A stretch of 24,292 nucleotides of DNA from a virus. The stretch spans positions 1 to 24,292 of IMG/VR virus record IMGVR_UViG_3300027631_000133. One strand, given 5' to 3'. Of the stretch, positions 1,723 to 19,543 are shown in pieces. Position 1 is the stretch's first letter; every line of letters begins with the position of its first letter. The notes beneath the pieces were generated by a model. It was given only the letters and a program-made list of their open reading frames with translations. It had not been told where the DNA came from and made no database searches. The position numbers and the translations under genes are program-made.

Positions 1723-2157
1723 TTAGATTGGCACAGCACAGTCAGTCCAATCATTGACAGTAAGAGTGATAGTCATCTGATAGCCTGCAGCGTAATCTAA
1801 TAGATCATTGTTAAGTGGTGTAAAGGTAGGAAGCCCTACCACATCAAAGTCATAGTCAGTGCTATCATTGAAATACACATTAAGGTCACTAAGTATCTGT
1901 TGAGTGTCACTTAATATAGTGATGATATTAGCTCTATCCTTTTGTATGATGTCATAGCAGTAAATATCAAAGGTAAACTCAGTAGTATTCTCAGTAGGGA
2001 TCACTCCACTAGGCACGATATACACCAAAGGATACTTCTCATTCTGAGTAGCAAAGTTATACAGCTGTTCTTTAAAGTCAGTGCCTACTTTGAACACTTG
2101 CTTATGGGCTGTATAGAATGCTATTATTTTGTTGGTTATTGCTTGTAAGGAATTCAT
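1723..2157 (-). CDS. Putative tail terminator/completion protein, 144 aa
   Basis: The 144-residue protein has an N-terminal helix ('LQAITNKIIAFYTAHKQVF'), then a beta-rich part with 'YPLVYIVPSG', 'TEFTFDIYCYDIIQKDRANI' and a second helix near 'ILSDTQQILSDLNVYF'. It ends with 'YQMTITLTVNDW'. A helix, then strands of the form x-F-x-F-D-I-Y-x-Y-D, then a helix and a final strand is the typical layout of siphovirus tail terminator or completion proteins of similar size (gpU-like), but this is a structural guess. Its start overlaps the tape measure stop as ATGA (2154-2157), showing translational coupling to the tape measure gene and supporting a tail assembly role. Confidence 0.6.
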   Translation of the reverse strand: MNSLQAITNKIIAFYTAHKQVFKVGTDFKEQLYNFATQNEKYPLVYIVPSGVIPTENTTEFTFDIYCYDIIQKDRANIITILSDTQQILSDLNVYFNDSTDYDFDVVGLPTFTPLNNDLLDYAAGYQMTITLTVNDWTDCAVPI

Positions 2158-4358
2158 AGCTCTGAGTTTTTATTGATCATGTTTATTTTTTTCTGTACAT
2201 TGGTTATCTGCGTTTCACTAACCACAGCTGTGACCATCATATTACCACCACCATCTGAAGTAGATCCTCCTGCACTCATAGTGTTAGCATTGTTAGATGA
2301 GCCAAACAGCTGAGCTGCCTGAGGTATCATCGTGGCTGTATTGCTACCAGTATCTCCACCTCCAGTGTCACCTCCTCCTGCTGTTACAGGGGTAGATGGT
2401 GATGTGAGTAACTGCTTAGCCTTAGCTATGTTAGTTGCTATCTGAATAACACCTGCTGCGAATTGTGCTATACCTGCACCACCTCCAGTAACAGAGTTAG
2501 CAGGGTTCATATTAGCAGCTGCTACTAAAGATGATATAGCCTTAGCAGTATCAATGCCTATTTGAATAAGAGCAGATGCCTTGTTAAATTTCTCTAGTTT
2601 CTTCTGATCCTTAATGAGCAAACCTCCTAAGTTGGTGAGCCCATCTACTGTATCTTTAGCGAAAGCTAGCTTAGCATCTCTTACTTTTCTATTATTTTCT
2701 ACCTCAGCATTAGCAGCAGCAATGTTAGCATTATCAATATCAATATCATACTTATTCTTTAGGGCTAGTAAAGTCTCAGCATTACCATTAGCAAGCTCTT
2801 GCTCTTTAAGATACTGAGCCTCAATAGCCATTATTTTACGTTGGTCATCAGTTAGGCCTAAATTGTTTAGTGAGTCTAGCAAAGCCTGTTGATCTGCTAT
2901 CTTCTTATCTGCTCTAGCTTTTGTAGTAGCTTCATCTGCTAGACGTAACTGCTCTTGAAATTCTGCAAATTGTGCACTATCAGCTCCGTACTTTTCCTTA
3001 GCTGCATTAACAGAAGCCTGATAAGCTACTTGTTGCTGTGCTGCTATCTTAGCCTCACCCTCAACCATGTTAGCTATCTTTAATGCATTGAGTGCTTGGA
3101 AGGCTTCGTTTTCTTTTTTCTTTTTAGCCTCATCAATTTTAGCCTGCTCATTTTCTTCTGCTAAATCAAACGCTGCTTTTAAGTCTTTCTTTTCTTTGTC
3201 AGTCTTAGTTTTATCTTTTAACAAATCAGCACGTAGCCTATCATATTTTTCATTAAGTACTGCTGCCTCTCTTACAGCATCATCTTTGATAGCAGCTATT
3301 CGTAAATCTTCAATCTGCCTTTCAGCATTTAGTCTATTTGTATCATACTCTTTTTGATCAGCCTCTTTTTTAGCTCTTATAGCCTTACCAACAGCAATGG
3401 CATTATCTGCTACCTTCTTAGCATTATCCTCTACCTTCTTTACATTGGCTGCATACATTACCTCCCTTGCATTATCAGCACTCCTGATGATATTATTTTC
3501 CTCATTAATCTTATCCCTTAACGCCTGCTTCTCCTTTTCAGCATCTTCACCTACCATATGAGCCATTGACGCTAATGTTTTCTGAGCATCACCTAATCTA
3601 ACTTTTGCTTGGGCTTCAAGTGCTTTTGATTTTTGTATTTCTAGAACAACTGTATCTTTTCCTGCAGCTCTAGCCATAGCTATCTCTTGGTCATAATAGT
3701 TACCTATTTGCTCACTTCTTTTTTTACTAGCCTCTGTGCTTTTCTCAGCAGCAGCTTTGACAGCCTCAGCATTTTCATCTGCAGCATAAGAGGTAAGTCC
3801 CATCATATCAGTGAGAGCCTTGAAACCTTCAATCAATAACATCAAAGGAGCCATCATAACCTTTATGACAATTTCTAAAACTCCAAAATACTTGAGCAAC
3901 ATAACTACAGCTACCACTATCCCTACAATTACTGCAGCCAATAAAAAATAAGGATTAACAAGTAACTGCAAGCCCATCTTAAGCATCTGAGCTCCTAGCT
4001 TTCCTGCAGCACTTGTAAGTGAACCTAATCCCTTGGTTAAATCAGCTGGCTTAAATTTAGCTAGAGTACCTGTAAAAGCAGTTACCTGAGTAGAAGCTTT
4101 AGAAAAGTCTAAGTTAGTTAAGCTATCTTTTATACCACCTATTTGAAGTCCTACCTTTTGCACAGTAGAGCCTGTACTAAAGTTCTTAATTGTTTTGTTG
4201 GTTTCTTTAAGCTTCTGATTAAGCTCACCTGCCCTAGTAGATAATCTTTCTATCTCAGCAGGATCCGTAGCATTTACTAAATCACTCTTGATCTGCTTAA
4301 GCTCAGCCTTCATCTCACCCAGGCCTGCTAATTTTATAGGGATTATTACCTCGTTCAT
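2154..4358 (-). CDS. Tail tape measure protein, 734 aa
   Basis: This is the tape measure protein, which fills the tail tube, sets tail length and is ejected ahead of the DNA. It begins with a helical head (about 1-100) that includes 'LTNLDFSKASTQVTAFTGTL', then a hydrophobic region at about 135-185 with at least two membrane-type segments ('AAVIVGIVVAVVMLLKYFG' and the stretch after it). Residues from about 190 to 570 are long, highly charged, A/K/E/D-rich coiled coil. A second alanine/isoleucine-rich hydrophobic stretch lies near 595-650, then a G/T/S-rich linker and a short C-terminal tail. At 734 residues it predicts a tail near 110 nm. Its start overlaps the stop of the 964-aa gene as TAATG, and its end overlaps the 144-aa gene as ATGA. 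I see no lysozyme or peptidase domain in it. Confidence 0.85.
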   Translation of the reverse strand: MNEVIIPIKLAGLGEMKAELKQIKSDLVNATDPAEIERLSTRAGELNQKLKETNKTIKNFSTGSTVQKVGLQIGGIKDSLTNLDFSKASTQVTAFTGTLAKFKPADLTKGLGSLTSAAGKLGAQMLKMGLQLLVNPYFLLAAVIVGIVVAVVMLLKYFGVLEIVIKVMMAPLMLLIEGFKALTDMMGLTSYAADENAEAVKAAAEKSTEASKKRSEQIGNYYDQEIAMARAAGKDTVVLEIQKSKALEAQAKVRLGDAQKTLASMAHMVGEDAEKEKQALRDKINEENNIIRSADNAREVMYAANVKKVEDNAKKVADNAIAVGKAIRAKKEADQKEYDTNRLNAERQIEDLRIAAIKDDAVREAAVLNEKYDRLRADLLKDKTKTDKEKKDLKAAFDLAEENEQAKIDEAKKKKENEAFQALNALKIANMVEGEAKIAAQQQVAYQASVNAAKEKYGADSAQFAEFQEQLRLADEATTKARADKKIADQQALLDSLNNLGLTDDQRKIMAIEAQYLKEQELANGNAETLLALKNKYDIDIDNANIAAANAEVENNRKVRDAKLAFAKDTVDGLTNLGGLLIKDQKKLEKFNKASALIQIGIDTAKAISSLVAAANMNPANSVTGGGAGIAQFAAGVIQIATNIAKAKQLLTSPSTPVTAGGGDTGGGDTGSNTATMIPQAAQLFGSSNNANTMSAGGSTSDGGGNMMVTAVVSETQITNVQKKINMINKNSEL

Positions 4359-7252
4359 TATCCGTAGTATTTAATTTCGATTGTTGTATTTAATAAGTAA
4401 CCATCTATGTATCCTGTACCAATTTGTGAGGTGTATATTTCAATATAATTACCTGCACCTATGTAGCTAACTGATATTATTCCATCATAAAATACATTAT
4501 TGATTAGCACAGTTATCTTAGGCACTATTATATCACCTATATCGTAGCCATCCAAATATCCTTTATACGCCCCTACTGCTCCTCGTGTCCAGGTGATACC
4601 ACCTATTGTATCATTCAGCACTTCAGCTATAGGATCACCTATCCCTACCTGAGTTAAGGTAGCAGTGTAAGATAACGGAGTGATGCCTACAGGTACACCG
4701 TTGAAAGTGGAAGCTCTTAGGTTATCACCTACTATAGTATTATCATAAATTATGTTTCCATCACCTACAATTACTGATCTAGTTCCCCCTACAATTGTAT
4801 TACCTCTACCCATTACCTGAGCTGTAGCTTGATTGCTAAATACATTAGAGGTAATCATAGCAGTAGTGTTGATACCACCCATGGCTAACATCTGCATAGC
4901 TCCTATAGCTGCAGGACCTACAGGTATGAGAGGACCACTTGGCCCCATGAAAGGTGTGAAGTTAATCTCATTATCTATGCTGATAAGTTCTACCCTTGTA
5001 AGCTTGCGAGCGTTTGCATCATAATCAATTACCTTATTGATATTCCACCATGAATTATCTATTCTAATCTTATCATTTAACTTAAGAGCTTGGATATCAT
5101 TCTCCTTCAAATCAAAGTTAGCTATAAGCATCTTACCATTGTTAATCTGCCCCATGGTCCTTCTCCAATATCTATTGTATAGATTGTTATCTGTTAGGCT
5201 AGTAGTTTGGTAATAGTAGAAATCACAAATAGCAAAGTTAATATCAAAGCTTGGTGTTAATGGATCATCAAAGTGGCCTACTAATGGATAGATAGTCAAG
5301 TTACTTTGCCCTACAGATCCAACGTCTAATATGCTATATTGTCCACAAGTGGCAAGGGGTTGCCCTGCTACAGTCTTATCGTATAAGATCCTTATGTTTG
5401 TCTCAGGTGCAGCACCTGCTATCATAGGCACAAAAGCTCCGAACAAAGTTTTAATAACAGGAGTAGGTGAAAATAGTATAGGCTTAGTTTCTACATTCTT
5501 AACATACTCATTATCAAAGACCACCTCAGCTTGTCCGTAGATATCGCTAGTAGCATTTGTATAAGTTGTATTAGGTGCGTCTTTATCAGGTGCATAAGTC
5601 AGGATAACTTTCTTTGCTGTTAGTTCAGGTAGAAAGGATAGCTCTTGTTCCTGGTCCTTAGCAAGTTTCTCAGTCCAGTCTACCTCCACACCACTATCAT
5701 AGAAATCATCTCTATTTTGAATTATCAGTTTGTTTGGTTGGTTAGTATCTACTGTAGCATAGATGTTATACATATTAAAGATAGACTTGATAAAGTCACT
5801 TTGCTTAATCTTCTTAGGTACATAATCATTAACATCTATCGTACCACCAATGGTGTATATGTTACTGCTAGGCACTATGGTTAGTTGTATGTTTGTTATT
5901 ACAGCCTGTATTCTTATCTGATTAGCACTTGATAATGGCCCTGCTATTGATCCTCTTCTCCATGTCCTAACGGTATTGTTACCACCTATTAGTATGTTCT
6001 GTTGCTGCACATTTATACCTAAAGTACTATTAGATCCACTGTTAAGAGTTGGGTATGTAAGTGGTAGACTAACCTGTATAGTTTGAGTTGTTAAATTAGT
6101 AGTACTACTTGGAGCTAAAGTTAAAGGGCATTCCACAGCATGGATAGCAGCTAAAGAACCAATAGTTGGGTTAGTATTTGTATAAATAAAAGCAGGTATT
6201 ATAGGTTGAACTAGACTGCCTGAACTCACTGCTAAATAAGGTGTATAAAATACAGGAGCTGCTGTAGTACTAAAACCATTGCCATAAGCACCATAAAAAG
6301 TAAAAGCTGTGTTATTAACTATATTCAGCTCATAAGTCATAGTAATACTATAATCATACTGCTGTGAGTTAGCTGAGCTTATGGTAAAAGGTGGAATGTA
6401 TACTCCTAAAGCGTTGATAAAAATACTCTGAGGATCTTCTAGTTCAGTCCAGTTTATTATGTTAACCTTAGTAGTCGGGCCTATGTTACTTGTTGATTGT
6501 CCGATACGTGTAATTCCCTGACTAGAATAAGTGCTATTGAAAGTAGTGGGTGTTGTAATCTCTGCTTTTACCAAATAGTCATTGTAGTCAAAGTTATCTA
6601 CCCCTCCATTGTAAGGTATGAAAAGCTTATCAAATCTATCATGAACTAACGTAGGCCAATCATAACTAAACCCAGCATCAGCGAAAATTCTATCAAAGTA
6701 TACCTTAGCAAAGATGGCAGGCTTAAACTCTTGAGTGTTGTATGTGTATGTTGAGTTAGCAGGAAGAAAATACTTGAAGCCCTCTACTATAGTGTTATCA
6801 AATCTATTAACTACATTGAGTGCATCATACGTATGGTTAAAGTCTGAGAAGTCAATATCAGTTAGGTCCTTGTTAGCAATGGCTGTGAAAAAATCTGCTT
6901 TACTATCTTTTATCAATACCTCATACTCTACGTGCTCCTCATATCCATCAGTCATCTGAGCCTTCTTAACTGAGGTGAGCTGTATAGATACATCCTCCAT
7001 GATAGGTATGCCATCCTGAATAACTGATCCTGTAGTAAGAGCATTAATGTTAAACGTACCCTCCACTATATTTACATCATAGTAATGGTTGAGTAAGTTA
7101 TTGTTATTCTTAGATCCTGTAAGAGTGATAGTCTTAGAGTAGTTACCTTGTCTCTTAGATACATCTCTAATATCTCCCACTTGGAAGTTCAAAGGGAAGG
7201 CTGTACCCTCCTTAACATCTAAGTAGCCTGTTGCTAGTTGTATCCTTACCAT
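4358..7252 (-). CDS. Large tail/baseplate hub-like protein with C-terminal repeat region, 964 aa
   Basis: This is a 964-residue structural protein. The N-terminal 130 residues ('MVRIQLATGYLDVKEGTAFP', then 'VGDIRDVSKRQGNYSKTITL') look like the conserved start of large tail proteins in Bacteroidetes phages. The middle is long and beta-rich, and about residues 480-760 carry 'IDVNDYVPKKIKQSDFIKSI', 'KKVILTYAPDKD' and 'LKLNDKIRIDNSWWNINKVI', a pattern reminiscent of tail hub proteins of the gp27/gp44 type (inference). From about residue 815 the chain changes: 'GRGNTIVGGTRSVIVGDGN' and 'IIYDNTIVGDN' resemble left-handed beta-helix repeats of trimeric adhesin heads, followed by a roughly 100-residue terminal beta domain. 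It lies between the 487-aa tail protein (1-base gap) and the tape measure (TAATG overlap). A tail-tip hub joined to a short adhesin-like tip is the likeliest reading. Confidence 0.7.
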   Translation of the reverse strand: MVRIQLATGYLDVKEGTAFPLNFQVGDIRDVSKRQGNYSKTITLTGSKNNNNLLNHYYDVNIVEGTFNINALTTGSVIQDGIPIMEDVSIQLTSVKKAQMTDGYEEHVEYEVLIKDSKADFFTAIANKDLTDIDFSDFNHTYDALNVVNRFDNTIVEGFKYFLPANSTYTYNTQEFKPAIFAKVYFDRIFADAGFSYDWPTLVHDRFDKLFIPYNGGVDNFDYNDYLVKAEITTPTTFNSTYSSQGITRIGQSTSNIGPTTKVNIINWTELEDPQSIFINALGVYIPPFTISSANSQQYDYSITMTYELNIVNNTAFTFYGAYGNGFSTTAAPVFYTPYLAVSSGSLVQPIIPAFIYTNTNPTIGSLAAIHAVECPLTLAPSSTTNLTTQTIQVSLPLTYPTLNSGSNSTLGINVQQQNILIGGNNTVRTWRRGSIAGPLSSANQIRIQAVITNIQLTIVPSSNIYTIGGTIDVNDYVPKKIKQSDFIKSIFNMYNIYATVDTNQPNKLIIQNRDDFYDSGVEVDWTEKLAKDQEQELSFLPELTAKKVILTYAPDKDAPNTTYTNATSDIYGQAEVVFDNEYVKNVETKPILFSPTPVIKTLFGAFVPMIAGAAPETNIRILYDKTVAGQPLATCGQYSILDVGSVGQSNLTIYPLVGHFDDPLTPSFDINFAICDFYYYQTTSLTDNNLYNRYWRRTMGQINNGKMLIANFDLKENDIQALKLNDKIRIDNSWWNINKVIDYDANARKLTRVELISIDNEINFTPFMGPSGPLIPVGPAAIGAMQMLAMGGINTTAMITSNVFSNQATAQVMGRGNTIVGGTRSVIVGDGNIIYDNTIVGDNLRASTFNGVPVGITPLSYTATLTQVGIGDPIAEVLNDTIGGITWTRGAVGAYKGYLDGYDIGDIIVPKITVLINNVFYDGIISVSYIGAGNYIEIYTSQIGTGYIDGYLLNTTIEIKYYG

Positions 7253-12433: not shown

Positions 12434-13101
12434 AATTGTTTTGTTAGTTCGTTAAAATATTCTCTACATTGTTCTACCCTCACCTTTATCTGCTCTATCA
12501 CCTCATCATCCCTTTCAATTACAAAGGTCTTTACTCTCTTAGCATCAGGGATATGATTAAAGCTGTGCTGTTTTTGCACCTGGTCTCTTAAGTCCAGGCT
12601 CTCCTCCATTAACCCTAACTTATAGTGTGCACTCTTTACCTCCTGCTCTACGATAGCATGGGGTGTATTAGTAAGGCAGTAACAAAGTAAAGCCTCTTGT
12701 TTATCTGTTAGCCACATATAGCCTTGAAGTTGGTAGTAGTAATCTTTGTTAGGGCATTCAGTATCAAACCATGGGAAAGTGCTACCACTCCATGAGTTCT
12801 TTACATCTACTAGCACCTGATCAGTGACTACATCCGGTGTACCGGTTAGCCAATCATTAGTGAAGTGCTCTTCGTTCTTAAATATAAAGCCCTTGTCTAT
12901 TACATCCATTACAAAGCTGAGGCACATATCCTCACACTCATTGCCCTTATCAGTATACTTACTAGTAAACTCTTTTCTGATACCATAAACGTGTGCCAGG
13001 GCTAAGCCCTGAATATACGTTTTAGTTGTTTGTGATAGTACCTCCCCTTTAGTTTTGGGTGAAGTCATTATCTTACCTATAGCTGAGCATCTAATTTTCA
13101 T
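12430..13101 (-). CDS. YqaJ-like viral recombinase exonuclease, 223 aa
   Basis: A PD-(D/E)XK nuclease of the YqaJ/lambda Red-alpha type, which would resect DNA ends to give a 3' single strand for the annealing protein next door. It starts 'MKIRCSAIGKIMTSP', the usual N-terminus of the family. Motifs: an acidic helix 'DKGNECEDMC' (E55 and E57), 'WLTGTPDVVT' with D90, 'VLVDVKNSWS' with D99 and K101, then 'YYYQLQGYMWLT', the QLQxYM motif of the family. Its start overlaps the ERF gene's stop as ATGA (13098-13101), so the two recombination proteins should be made together. This pairing is the standard two-component phage recombination system. Confidence 0.85.
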   Translation of the reverse strand: MKIRCSAIGKIMTSPKTKGEVLSQTTKTYIQGLALAHVYGIRKEFTSKYTDKGNECEDMCLSFVMDVIDKGFIFKNEEHFTNDWLTGTPDVVTDQVLVDVKNSWSGSTFPWFDTECPNKDYYYQLQGYMWLTDKQEALLCYCLTNTPHAIVEQEVKSAHYKLGLMEESLDLRDQVQKQHSFNHIPDAKRVKTFVIERDDEVIEQIKVRVEQCREYFNELTKQL

Positions 13102-13649
13102 ATCATAGGTATTAGCAACAGTGAATTAATCTGAGTATCATTCAAGTCAAAGCTCTCTTTAAGTTTCTCTACAGTGAATTTACCATCAGCAATAGCCTTA
13201 ACAGCCTCAGCAAATCTCTTTGCATCTATCTTAGGTTTAGCAGTTGTAGCTACGTGGCCATCATCATCAGTTGCCTGAAGAGTGAGCAGAGCTTGGATGG
13301 TGTACCTACGAAAGTAGGAAATTTGACTCCCCTGCTGCTGTGCATTGAGGGTTAAGTCCATAGCCATACAGCTAGAGATACTAAAGCCAGTGTAGATACA
13401 TACAATCTGAGTGCATACACTACCACCATCTATAGGCTGCAGTAAAAGTAGATCATGCTGTAATAGGATAGGCTCAACAGTTTCTAGGATACTATTGATA
13501 TCTGCATAAGACTTCTTGAAATGGGGGTTAGTAGCATTCTTATGTACTTTACCGATTAGTTGTTTTGCCTTGTGAAGGCGAACATAGAAGGGAGCAGGCT
13601 GCTGCTCAACCTCCTGAGGCTTTACAGCCTTAGTTGTTGTTTTTTCCAT
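13098..13649 (-). CDS. erf: ERF-family single-strand annealing protein, 183 aa
   Basis: Recombination mediator of the ERF superfamily, which anneals complementary single strands. After a polar, glutamine-rich N-terminus (about 1-20), the core runs 'FYVRLHKAKQLIGKVHKNAT', 'NPHFKKSYADINSILETVEP', then 'LLQHDLLLLQPI'. The 'N-x-x-F-x-S/K-x-Y-A-x-x' pattern and the later 'QGSQISYFRRYTIQALLTL' segment are the family signature. 'QATDDDGH' closes the core. The C-terminal 45 residues are a small helical extension. It starts with AAACTAACCAATG, a leader nearly the same as that of the early operon at 20347, with a TATATTTG box 23 bases upstream of the start codon. It is coupled to the YqaJ-like nuclease. 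Confidence 0.85.
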   Translation of the reverse strand: MEKTTTKAVKPQEVEQQPAPFYVRLHKAKQLIGKVHKNATNPHFKKSYADINSILETVEPILLQHDLLLLQPIDGGSVCTQIVCIYTGFSISSCMAMDLTLNAQQQGSQISYFRRYTIQALLTLQATDDDGHVATTAKPKIDAKRFAEAVKAIADGKFTVEKLKESFDLNDTQINSLLLIPMI

Positions 13650-13686: not shown

Positions 13687-13890
13687 TTATTCTATTTTCA
13701 CATTATTTTCTAAAATTATTTCTCTAAGCTTTTCCCTTACCTCATACATTTCCTCTTTACCATTGTACTTGTACTCACCTCGTAACCACTGATCCATCTC
13801 TACAAGTGCCATGTAATAGTTAAAGCCATTGGTAGCGTAGTTAAAATCATCTTGGTCCTCAGGTAGGTTAAATTCTAAGGTAGCTTTCAT
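13687..13890 (-). CDS. Small hypothetical protein, 67 aa
   Basis: A 67-residue acidic protein: 'MKATLEFNLPEDQDDFNYAT', then 'NYYMALVEMDQWLRGEYKYN', then 'EVREKLREIILENNVKIE'. It looks like a strand, then two helices. Proteins beginning F-x-L-P-E-x-x-x-x-F-x-x-A are common in replication blocks of Bacteroidetes phages, always as hypotheticals. It lies just upstream of the ERF promoter and downstream of the repeat-flanked 67-aa gene. Confidence 0.7.
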   Translation of the reverse strand: MKATLEFNLPEDQDDFNYATNGFNYYMALVEMDQWLRGEYKYNGKEEMYEVREKLREIILENNVKIE

Positions 13891-13946
13891 ATCATTAGTT
13901 ATTATACTTCGCCAAAGGTGGTTAAATTTTATAGTTTTGGCTAGTT

Positions 13947-13969
13947 ATATCATTTCTATTTAAGTAATG
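13947..13969. repeat. 23-bp direct repeat, copy 1
   Basis: A 23-base segment starting ATATCATTTC and ending TTTAAGTAATG, identical to the one at 14162-14184. This copy straddles the stop codon of the 67-aa gene at 13960-14163. Confidence 0.9.
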
Positions 13970-14163
13970 TGAATTAAAAAACTTATCTTCCTTCTTAAAG
14001 TAGGGTACTTACTCAATAGCCACAAGGTTAAATCATCTTGTTCTGAGCCATCAATATGAAATTCTGCATATGTATGCTCCTTGTGTCCTTGTAGAACTTC
14101 ATTTTGTTGTAAATGCTCTGGAATATCAGACAGTTTAATTACTGATTTAGTTATTGTTTTCAT
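13960..14163 (-). CDS. Small hypothetical protein flanked by direct repeats, 67 aa
   Basis: A 67-residue protein: 'MKTITKSVIKLSDIPEHLQQ', then 'HTYAEFHIDGSEQDDLTLWL', then 'LSKYPTLRRKISFLIHIT'. It is soluble with mixed charge. The last codons overlap one copy of a 23-bp repeat, and the second copy overlaps the first bases of its ATG and lies upstream of it, so the gene with one repeat makes a unit of 215 bases that could have been gained or lost as a cassette. I recognise no family. Confidence 0.6.
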   Translation of the reverse strand: MKTITKSVIKLSDIPEHLQQNEVLQGHKEHTYAEFHIDGSEQDDLTLWLLSKYPTLRRKISFLIHIT

Positions 14164-14184
14164 ATCATTTCTATTTAAGTAATG
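14162..14184. repeat. 23-bp direct repeat, copy 2
   Basis: An exact copy of 13947-13969. On the minus strand it forms the 5' leader of the 67-aa gene, ending AAATGATATG where the last ATG is the start codon. It abuts the hairpin at 14184-14200. Confidence 0.9.
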
Positions 14185-14200
14185 GGGTAACTTTTACCCC
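14184..14200 (-). other. Perfect short hairpin after the nuclease gene
   Basis: GGGGTAA, three bases, then TTACCCC: a 7-bp perfect stem with a 3-base loop, 12 bases past the stop of the nuclease gene. No U tract follows on the minus strand (ATTACTT), so it may be an RNA processing or stability element rather than an intrinsic terminator. Confidence 0.55.
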
Positions 14201-14211
14201 TTATCCTTTAT

Positions 14212-14667
14212 CTATTTGTCTAGGCAAAAATTATCATACCACTCAACAAAATCATCAAAGGTCTTACTAATAATATAGATACCTCCTGCAGCTTCTATCA
14301 TCTTCTGATATTCTTTCTGCACTACTGACTGTTTATCCTTACCAATCTTCACTTCTATCTTTACAGATCTACCATAAATAGTAGCAGATATATCTGCAGA
14401 TCCTGGAGTACCTGTGCCCTTGGTCCACTGCCCTGCAGTCTTAGTGCCATCGGTTCTATAGCTTTGCCTAAATACACCCATTGTATTAATCCTTTCAGCT
14501 TGGTGCTTAGAGTGATTAAGAAAGTCAGTGATGCATCTAGTCAAACCATTAGCTGTAGCATCTGAGTACTTAGTGAAGGGGATGATGTGCCCAGGTGCTG
14601 ATGGGTACCGGTAACTCATATACTTCTCCTCAAGCTCATGAAGTCTTTGTTTGTTTTGTTTGTTCAT
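14212..14667 (-). CDS. VRR-NUC-like PD-(D/E)XK nuclease, 151 aa
   Basis: A small nuclease, probably acting on branched or damaged DNA during replication or recombination. The core is 'GTGTPGSADISATIYG' (D92 as the first metal ligand), then 'SVKIEVKIGKDKQS' (E105-x-K107), then 'QKEYQKMIEAAGGIYIISK' with Q117, the helix-strand pattern of VRR-NUC and Holliday junction resolvase-like nucleases. The first 80 residues are helical and include 'DATANGLTRCITDFLNHSKH', probably DNA-contacting. The final 'FDDFVEWYDNF' is the usual closing helix. It lies in the replication operon after the primase/helicase. The fold is clear; the exact substrate is not. Confidence 0.8.
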   Translation of the reverse strand: MNKQNKQRLHELEEKYMSYRYPSAPGHIIPFTKYSDATANGLTRCITDFLNHSKHQAERINTMGVFRQSYRTDGTKTAGQWTKGTGTPGSADISATIYGRSVKIEVKIGKDKQSVVQKEYQKMIEAAGGIYIISKTFDDFVEWYDNFCLDK

Positions 14668-17813: not shown

Positions 17814-18176
17814 TTAATAATAATTGCATCTAATCTGCTCTTTAAGTTTCTCTAATTTCTCCAGGCTTACACATTCTAATACCCTCTGCTTTAATGGCTT
17901 ATAGTATTGAGGTAGCACAAACTGCTCTCTTAATTCTAAGGTATGCATCATATAAGAGCTATCCTTGTATTTCATGTACGTGTCATGCTTTGCTATCCCA
18001 TTTATGACAGTTGCATGAGTTTGCTCAAACAGCCTACCAATCTGAGATAAGGTCATGCCATCCCTTTTGAGTACTTTATAGAGGTAATACCTCCGATAGA
18101 TCAGATGCATATATCTGCTTTTTTGTTTTAGATCATACTTGTCTATGATAGCCTGTATCTCTTCTAGTCTAGTCAT
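17814..18176 (-). CDS. DnaA domain IV-like replication initiator or regulator, 120 aa
   Basis: A 120-residue basic protein. After an N-terminal helix ('MTRLEEIQAIIDKYDLKQKS') comes 'YRRYYLYKVLKRDGMTLSQI', then 'GRLFEQTHATVINGIAKHDT'. The 'IGRLF...THATVINGI' stretch (about 46-61) closely follows the DNA-binding signature of DnaA domain IV (IG..FG.RDHTTV..). No AAA+ domain is present, so it is a stand-alone DNA-binding module. The C-terminal 50 residues are helical. It overlaps the methyltransferase stop as ATGA (18173-18176), and its own stop lies 3 bases from the outermost iteron. It probably binds the TTTGCAC repeats beside it; that pairing is inference. Confidence 0.7.
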   Translation of the reverse strand: MTRLEEIQAIIDKYDLKQKSRYMHLIYRRYYLYKVLKRDGMTLSQIGRLFEQTHATVINGIAKHDTYMKYKDSSYMMHTLELREQFVLPQYYKPLKQRVLECVSLEKLEKLKEQIRCNYY

Positions 18177-19543
18177 AATGGTAAATTTTTAATTATTTTT
18201 TCTAATACTCTAACTACTATACTATTCCCTGCTTGCTTGTATGCTTGACTATCAGATACAGGCCAACTAAAAGTATCAGGGAAATCCATAAGTCTAAAGC
18301 ATTCTCTAGGTGTTAATCTTCTAATCCGATAATCATTAATATTATGATTTCTATCCCCTCCTAAATTTGCTAATATTGCAGGTGAAATACCATTAATATC
18401 AAAAATTCTATTTTGTTGATAAGGTTGCTGACCACCACTTTCTAAACTTGGATTTAATTGTACTACCACATTATCCTTTTGAACAGTTGTAATAGCATTG
18501 CTTGTACCTTGTTGGTTTATTTCCAATCTCTGCTCTGTTGGAGCTCCCGTTGTTCTATCAGATGCATTGTTAGGATTACGACCTCTGAATGCACCTATCA
18601 TCACTCCCTGATTACAAGCAGTATCCAATGTCTGAGCCACTTGTTTACCTACTCTACCTCTTCTAGTTTCAGATCCTGGGAATGAAAGATTAATACTATC
18701 TCCCTCAGTAGCCTCATCATATCCTTTAGCTGTGCCTGATTTTATTTTAAGATATTGACAATCTCTAGGTTGTTTGTAATAACTAGCAATACAAGTTTTT
18801 GACTCATTTGGAATATCATCAATTAAAATGTTTTTATTTACCTGATGCCTAACTAAATAATTAATTCTTTCATTACTCAAAAAATACTTATCATCTACAG
18901 TAGGCTCAAGTACATTCTTTAATCTTTTAGTTAACTCCTCCTCAGCTGGCCATGTGAATGTATTATCCTGATCATCTCTAATGCCTATTAAAAATACTCT
19001 TTCTCTATTCTGAGGTACTCCATGTTTTTTAGCATTTAATACTTTGTAATGTAGATGATAAGGTACAGCTCCATCTATTGAGTGTTCATTAATTACACCA
19101 TTTATAGACTTGCCTCCTAGATAATCTATCCACTCTTTAAATGTTTTACCTATTTTATCTTTTTTATTTTCTTTATCGTGAGATAGTAATCCTCTTACAT
19201 TCTCAAAAATAAAGAAACGTGGATTATTAACCTGTATAAATTTTAAACTATTAAAGAATAAAATACCTCTTTTATCCTCTTTACCTAATCTCTTACCTGC
19301 CATACTAAATGCTTGACAAGGTGGAGAGGTCATATATATATCTAGGCTTTCTGATGGTATCTCTCTATCGTATACATTCAATGGGTAGTATTTAGGCTCT
19401 CCATAATTATGTATAAAAGTTTGTCTTGCATACTTATCCATATCACAGGCATATACTTCTTGATATTCAATGCCTAATCTAGTTAGTGCTTGATTAAATG
19501 CTCCTACTCCTGAGAAGTCACTCCCTACTTTAATTGTTTTCAT
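18173..19543 (-). CDS. dcm: DNA (cytosine-5-)-methyltransferase, 456 aa
   Basis: A C5-cytosine DNA methyltransferase, which would modify phage DNA, most simply to escape host restriction. Motif I is 'SDFSGVGAFNQAL', motif IV 'MTSPPCQAFSMAG' with the catalytic Cys at 76, motif VI 'FENVRGLL' (E114), and motif VIII 'QNRERVFLIGI' (R180 onward). The long variable part (about 210-400) is the target recognition domain. Motif IX is 'RRLTPRECFRLMDFP', and motif X 'QAGNSIVVRVLEKI' closes the fold. All key residues are present, so it should be active. No cognate endonuclease gene is in the window, so it acts alone. Both ends overlap neighbours as ATGA. Confidence 0.93.
   Translation of the reverse strand: MKTIKVGSDFSGVGAFNQALTRLGIEYQEVYACDMDKYARQTFIHNYGEPKYYPLNVYDREIPSESLDIYMTSPPCQAFSMAGKRLGKEDKRGILFFNSLKFIQVNNPRFFIFENVRGLLSHDKENKKDKIGKTFKEWIDYLGGKSINGVINEHSIDGAVPYHLHYKVLNAKKHGVPQNRERVFLIGIRDDQDNTFTWPAEEELTKRLKNVLEPTVDDKYFLSNERINYLVRHQVNKNILIDDIPNESKTCIASYYKQPRDCQYLKIKSGTAKGYDEATEGDSINLSFPGSETRRGRVGKQVAQTLDTACNQGVMIGAFRGRNPNNASDRTTGAPTEQRLEINQQGTSNAITTVQKDNVVVQLNPSLESGGQQPYQQNRIFDINGISPAILANLGGDRNHNINDYRIRRLTPRECFRLMDFPDTFSWPVSDSQAYKQAGNSIVVRVLEKIIKNLPL

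Follow-up and report, generated by a model that had tools for sequence, protein, structure and literature searches.

A 67-aa phage gene bracketed by two copies of a hairpin-linked leader is probably a recently gained cassette with a precise empty site

In T4-type phages, mobile units composed of a promoter and a stem-loop (PeSLs) reportedly lie between genes and supply homology for the shuffling of small genes; the unit is said to include an early promoter and to mediate exchange of the adjoining gene. Integrons offer a second point of comparison, as their recombination sites fold as hairpins. Integron gene cassettes, which are plug-in genes with a recombination site, occur in phages, as do CALINs, according to the available part of the source (PMC9892861). 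In cluster K mycobacteriophages, the accessible part of the published description reports a short asymmetric conserved sequence of 13 bp (SAS), present in 11-19 copies per genome directly upstream of the start codons of genes from various families. This sequence may contain the stop codon of the upstream gene, about half of the copies have inverted repeats just upstream (ESAS) and a role in translation initiation has been proposed (PMC3203893).

To place a bracketed small gene against this background, we analysed a 24,292-nucleotide stretch of viral DNA (IMG/VR record IMGVR_UViG_3300027631_000133, positions 1 to 24,292; hereafter the window). The sequence CATTACTTAAATAGAAATGATAT (minus strand) is present in two exact copies in the same orientation, at 14162-14184 and 13947-13969. 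This bears out an earlier note on this DNA, which had reported identical 23-base segments at the start and the stop of a 67-aa gene and had described the gene plus one repeat as a unit of 215 bases, the spacing we find between the copies. The repeat is the longest exact direct repeat in the window and the only one of 23 bases, whereas the longest repeat in 100 first-order Markov sequences averaged 14.9 bases and reached at most 19. Allowing three mismatches, no further copies were found in the window, and none occurred in 100 shuffles. Copy 1 is the 5′ leader (hereafter D) of the 67-aa open reading frame (P1, 13960-14163, minus strand) and shares the first two bases of its ATG, while copy 2 supplies the last Thr codon and the stop codon. 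Since copy 2 is followed by ATATAAC rather than by the ATATGAA found after copy 1, no start codon stands behind it and it is an orphan leader. Immediately 5′ of copy 1 lies module C, a predicted hairpin (GGGGTAA-AAG-TTACCCC; module at 14185-14208, stem at 14200-14184), in which the last C of the stem is the first base of D. An Rfam search (E<=1) gave three hits, all below threshold; among them, a plant-virus (TMV) pseudoknot model overlaps both leaders (14165-14192 and 13950-13983) with 18.3 and 16.3 bits against a cut-off of 34, and these matches are probably due to chance.

All neighbouring genes considered here are likewise on the minus strand, and the order in the window is nuclease-like gene, hairpin C, D, P1, D, spacer E and downstream gene. 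The upstream gene (14212-14667), our left anchor, encodes a putative nuclease-like protein with weak PHROG matches (best phrog_824, unknown, E=4.4e-5; phrog_93, endonuclease, E=0.0031) and no match in a Pfam search. Spacer module E (13891-13946) separates copy 2 from the right anchor, a gene for another 67-aa protein (13687-13890). The latter is widespread, with 355 confirmed stretches, and because it is found directly behind the hairpin-leader combination (C-D) in 12 of 56 contexts elsewhere it may itself be a cassette. The second and third genes downstream of P1 encode an Erf-family single-strand annealing protein (13098-13649; PF04404 ERF, E=5.6e-17; phrog_2324, E=1.4e-27) and a phage exonuclease (12430-13101; phrog_5715 exonuclease, E=1.2e-61; no Pfam match at E<=0.1). 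Further away, the protein encoded at 17814-18176, which adjoins a C-5 cytosine methylase (18173-19543), weakly resembles the C-terminal DNA-binding domain of DnaA (E=4.8e-5, short of the curated threshold). Among named phage records, 823 contain a match to the terminase, none of which reaches 60% identity; their hosts are diverse and include Streptococcus (214), Staphylococcus (107), Bacteroides (97) and Flavobacterium (75). The best 20 of the 823 come from phages infecting Bacteroides, Parabacteroides or Flavobacterium and show about 32-33% identity, so that a Bacteroidota host is likely.

P1 has 85 confirmed relatives in viral contigs, of which the best 80 were used. Among these, both flanking genes were called in 70 loci, in which 55 different combinations of neighbours were seen, and many loci that are otherwise unmatched to the window share approximately 13966-14163, which is the P1 reading frame from its ATG to just before the stop codon. 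Values of dN/dS between the window and ten relatives range from 0.07 to 0.26, indicating that the protein is maintained by selection. P1 has zero matches in Pfam and PHROG at E<=0.1; its AlphaFold model (pLDDT 80, pTM 0.62) finds a best PDB match of E=5.3, and in BFVD a single match passes E<=0.001, to a protein of an uncultured phage (67% identity) that is itself uncharacterised. A tblastn search of the INPHARED phage collection gave nothing at E<=0.01, and none of the 103 stretches in genome_contigs that fit P1 peptide patterns, to which that search was limited, was confirmed as a relative.

To compare occupied and unoccupied sites, we assembled loci from the best 80 relatives each of P1, the nuclease-like gene, the downstream 67-aa gene and the Erf gene; every sequence compared is an uncultured-virus contig, and many are fragmentary. 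The interval between the nuclease-like gene and the downstream gene takes at least 49 distinct forms, including the window's own and with one locus, L206, counted twice. In L109, the nuclease-like gene is followed by C, a single D, E and the downstream gene, without P1, and this site agrees with the window minus P1 and one D at 99 of 106 positions with no internal gap. L118 and L266 have one-leader sites of the same type, also without P1, in which the last part of the spacer differs. Elsewhere, D is directly followed by genes of a family beginning MKQTAVEW or similar (L199, L242, L234, L233 and L171), by a different family beginning MKNIAIG (L252 and L181) or by the downstream gene itself (L226, L140, L136, L205 and L090), and some other relatives have the nuclease/downstream-gene site without any D. 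P1 is present in only one (the window) of the 65 distinct nuclease 3′ flanks of at least 450 bases among the loci listed, with D but no P1 in 23 and neither in 41; L002, which has P1 between the same two neighbours as the window, was too short for this count. Because P1 is a rare state at this site, gain is the simpler reading.

These comparisons agree with the suggestion of the earlier note that the 67-aa gene is a recently gained cassette, in that close relatives sharing these neighbours carry a single leader and lack the gene. Rather than all relatives carrying the gene with diverged flanks, the case that would have weakened this suggestion, 64 of the 65 flanks lack it. The note had also reasoned that recombination between the repeats would remove the gene and leave one leader. 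The predicted product does appear in L109, L118 and L266, and the rarity of the gene suggests that such sites may represent the state before gain rather than the result of removal. The further proposal, that the leader had been duplicated along with its gene, fares less well, as one-leader, gene-less relatives speak against it. In this explanation, leader and gene would have been duplicated in tandem at the site itself and the body of the second gene then lost, with no transfer between phages, which would account for the right copy as an orphan leader. However, since gene-less relatives have one leader and the same spacer, the simplest starting state is one without the gene, and the same block is found in a second contig, L001, with a gene copy that resembles the window's more than does that of L002; we regard tandem duplication as very unlikely.

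In L001 (10.2 kb of an 89-kb contig), similarity to the window at E<=1e-5 is confined to 13945-14220, with 95.7% identity, a segment corresponding to C-D-P1-D. Its right leader, which retains 19 of 23 positions, is followed by a spacer also seen in L124 and L110, where it stands behind one C-D and P1 is missing; the spacers can be aligned as far as the next start codon. The P1 sequences of L001 and L002 are 98.0% and 93.9% identical to that of the window (4 versus 12 differences in 198 bases, which are small numbers), whereas the nuclease neighbour is identical between the window and L002 in 410 of 446 columns and has no real match in L001. Behind P1, L002 has at best a remnant of the leader (15/23, manual count), and the window alone has a perfect second copy. 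Where the window reads ACTT, the left leader copies of both L001 and L002 read AATT. Gene conversion between the two D copies of the window was considered and is superfluous, as the two alleles are both common (33 and 26 of 67). At 4964-4980, opposite window positions 14184-14200, L002 has GGGGCAACTTTTACCCC, the common hairpin in reverse complement; the 17-base hairpin has thus apparently been inverted there, with 6 of 7 pairs preserved.

A scan of viral contigs for D, which returned 60 stretches, reveals that the 23-base repeat is part of a wider hairpin-leader element common to many phages and genes. The C-D element spans approximately 62 bp and consists of a 7-bp hairpin, the 23-nt leader and then the ATG. 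With D conserved at 20 or more of 23 positions there are 56 distinct contexts across 348 loci, and hairpin C is directly upstream in 55 of them (matching at 18 to 24 of 24 positions), the exception being the second copy in the window; at a looser cut of at least 18/23 the hairpin is found in 59 of 67 contexts (manual count). Defining gene families as single-linkage clusters of mechanically called ORFs, and counting closely related contigs separately, the genes upstream of D belong to 12 families besides P1 (none was called in 2 of the 56 contexts), and a gene of at least 40 aa starts at D in 35 of the 56, representing eight families. In the remaining 21, D is followed by further spacer, a short frame or the contig end. 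The MKQTAVEW family (L199, L242, L171 and L012) is the commonest gene directly behind C-D, with 13 of the 35, and the one member scanned has no Pfam match. Single linkage places the 62 D-bearing loci (60 contigs) in six backbone groups, the largest of 38 and 18 loci. At E<=1e-8, many of these loci share with the window no DNA other than a run of 62-67 bases within 14153-14220. D was found once in each of the 20 records searched whole (20-114 kb, hand-chosen from the 60 contigs) at up to three mismatches, a threshold that leaves out the second copy in L001, which has four. No exact C-D match was found in genome_contigs.

The second base pair of stem C varies in a paired manner (G-C in 30, T-A in 18 and mismatched in 11 of 59; Fisher p about 1e-6, ignoring relatedness). 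A promoter scan limited to the sigma-70 type found 5 sites against 4.3 expected, which is background, while terminator-like sites numbered 4 against 0.7 expected. Hairpin C is terminator-like on the plus strand only, opposite to the genes, and its candidature as terminator of the upstream gene was rejected on this account. Judging from its position, D may provide the translation start for the gene that follows. It has to be asked whether this would suffice, that is, whether the leader recurs merely as a favoured translation start signal, so that identity of the copies would carry no information on recombination. The exact placement of leaders before ATG codons and the recurrence of AT-rich leaders in many of these loci fit such an explanation. 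However, it sits poorly with the hairpin plus leader being the sole DNA common to the window and many loci, with a right-hand copy that starts no gene and with the existence of one-leader empty sites, and we consider it very unlikely.

How does C-D compare with the described systems? As in the PeSLs of T4-type phages, a stem-loop lies between genes (here with a 7-bp stem, in the 59 contexts given above), and the reported role of PeSLs in exchange has a possible counterpart in the occurrence of the same leader with different genes and of empty sites. Unlike what is said of PeSLs, the leader here abuts the ATG and is present in one copy per record in all 20 records. As to the early promoter of PeSLs, the sigma-70-type scan gave matches at background level. 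By analogy, C-D may work like a PeSL. Mobile leader units that mediate the shuffling of phage genes are already known, and the C-D cassette with its empty site may be a variant of these. A limited literature search by title and the start of the abstract found nothing on this leader or on hairpin-leader cassettes in Bacteroidota phages.

With respect to SAS, as far as the accessible part of its description goes, the likeness lies in the position of the leader directly before the start codons of eight gene families, in the way that a preceding gene can end within the conserved sequence and in the inverted repeats just upstream, which about half of the SAS copies have. In contrast to the 11-19 copies of SAS per genome, the 23-nt leader occurs once per record in the 20 searched and twice in the window, the SAS consensus GGGATAGGAGCCC (13 bp) matches the minus strand of 13941-14215 at 7 of 13 positions at best, and the same part of the description contains neither a gene bracketed by two copies nor a one-copy empty site. 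Thus, on the part of the source available, the C-D leader works like SAS but is not a member of that family. Integron cassettes, in the portion of the source at hand, are similar in being plug-in genes with a recombination site in phages. They differ in that the hairpin here lies upstream of the gene and contains no G|TTRRRY box on either strand; across 13941-14215, a GTTRRRY box is absent from the gene strand and found once on the other strand, inside the gene. None of the 18 window proteins scanned with Pfam is an integron integrase, in a contig that may be incomplete. By the features tested, the C-D unit is not an integron cassette.

Bracketing by repeats extends beyond P1. Excluding the window from the count, and with L001 and L002 scoring 8 and 7, exact flanking repeats of at least 12 nt are found around P1 in 9 of 69 loci and, at these loci, around 56 of the 898 small ORFs other than P1; the medians are equal at 7 nt (one-sided rank test p=0.027). 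Given these similar values, bracketing is not a property of P1 and recurs, as a minority state, among the small genes of these phages. In L012, P1 is located in a run of small genes that share a different 17-base leader, CTTTAAATCAGAATARR, before their ATG, with 11 copies (at most three mismatches) at 2077-6016, within approximately 4 kb of an 89.5-kb record. This leader also encodes the C-terminal end of some of the preceding genes, and P1 itself ends there in leader-supplied residues. A second ATG-linked copy of P1's own leader (at least 17/24) occurs in 24 of 70 loci compared with 120 of 4200 control ATG sites, but since the controls are unmatched for base composition this is only a hint of leader repetition within the same locus.

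These counts also bear on transposition-like insertion, in which the 23-bp repeat would be a target-site duplication around the ORF. In formal terms a target duplication would look like this, with a single leader when the site is empty and two when it is filled. Nevertheless, the 192-base insert contains the 67-aa ORF alone, for which Pfam gave no match, and lacks significant inverted repeats at its termini. Comparison of its outer 40 bases yields an inverted match of at most 7 nt, which is not terminal and is reached in 47 of 500 shuffles. No transposase was detected among the 18 window proteins scanned with Pfam, P1 elsewhere mostly lacks flanking repeats of 12 nt or more, and an ATG, a feature of leaders, is present in each of the five longest; such an insertion is highly improbable. 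Least probable of all is an assembly artefact joining two co-occurring phages, with and without the gene, at their common leader, for although the window is an uncultured-virus contig in which the repeat is a natural switch point, and no other contig has the perfect second copy, the separate contig L001 has the same leader-gene-leader order with 19/23 in its second copy and L002 has leader and gene between the same neighbours with at best a 15/23 remnant behind.

We therefore return to the cassette. Its comparative support consists of filled and empty sites, one versus two leaders, the C-D-P1-D block of L001, one leader with many genes and one gene with many leaders. It counts against the cassette that most carriers of P1 are unbracketed and that the second leader is intact in the window only. 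On balance, a cassette with a precise empty site appears real and is well supported by the contigs compared, and we think it probable that the 67-aa gene was recently gained as a plug-in cassette in a variable C-D slot at which small genes are exchanged by recombination. Since other phages have other genes behind the same leader and some relatives have no gene there, the shared leader has the appearance of a junction through which small genes pass between phages, and the presence of the same C-D in phages that share little other DNA suggests that it could offer short homology for the exchange of genes behind it.

In the mechanism that we propose, a join at the start codon would first have put P1 behind C-D. 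The 3′ end of P1 could then have been joined into the D of a recipient at six shared bases, CACATT, which are present at the end of P1 and in CCACATTA variants of C-D. This join would have left a second copy of D and hence a gene bracketed by repeats, and the bracketed 215-bp unit might subsequently be exchanged, or lost by recombination between the D copies. Exchange of genes behind C-D would take place during co-infection through recombination of the homologous or annealing type, for which the Erf protein and exonuclease encoded close by are plausible candidate enzymes. In the available part of a study of the Erf/Exo system of phage D3, identical and 78% identical sequences were recombined about as well as by lambda Red; the homologies used there were hundreds of bases long, compared with 23-62 here (PMC3945230).

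A more speculative extension, which we put forward tentatively and regard as doubtful, is that C-D is a dedicated, one-per-genome docking site that captures promoterless small genes through the phages' own annealing recombinases, common to phages that share little other DNA, in contigs from about 20 to more than 110 kb. If this were true, C-D would be a recombinase-free analogue of the integron platform, in which the leader, the stop codon of the preceding gene and the recombination joint would be the same few bases. Phages carry many small genes that are gained and lost, and that are exchanged very exactly between unlike phages. With a filled site, an empty site, the unit in a contig that is otherwise unmatched and a candidate recombinase encoded close by, the proposal that leaders may act as exchange joints becomes directly testable.
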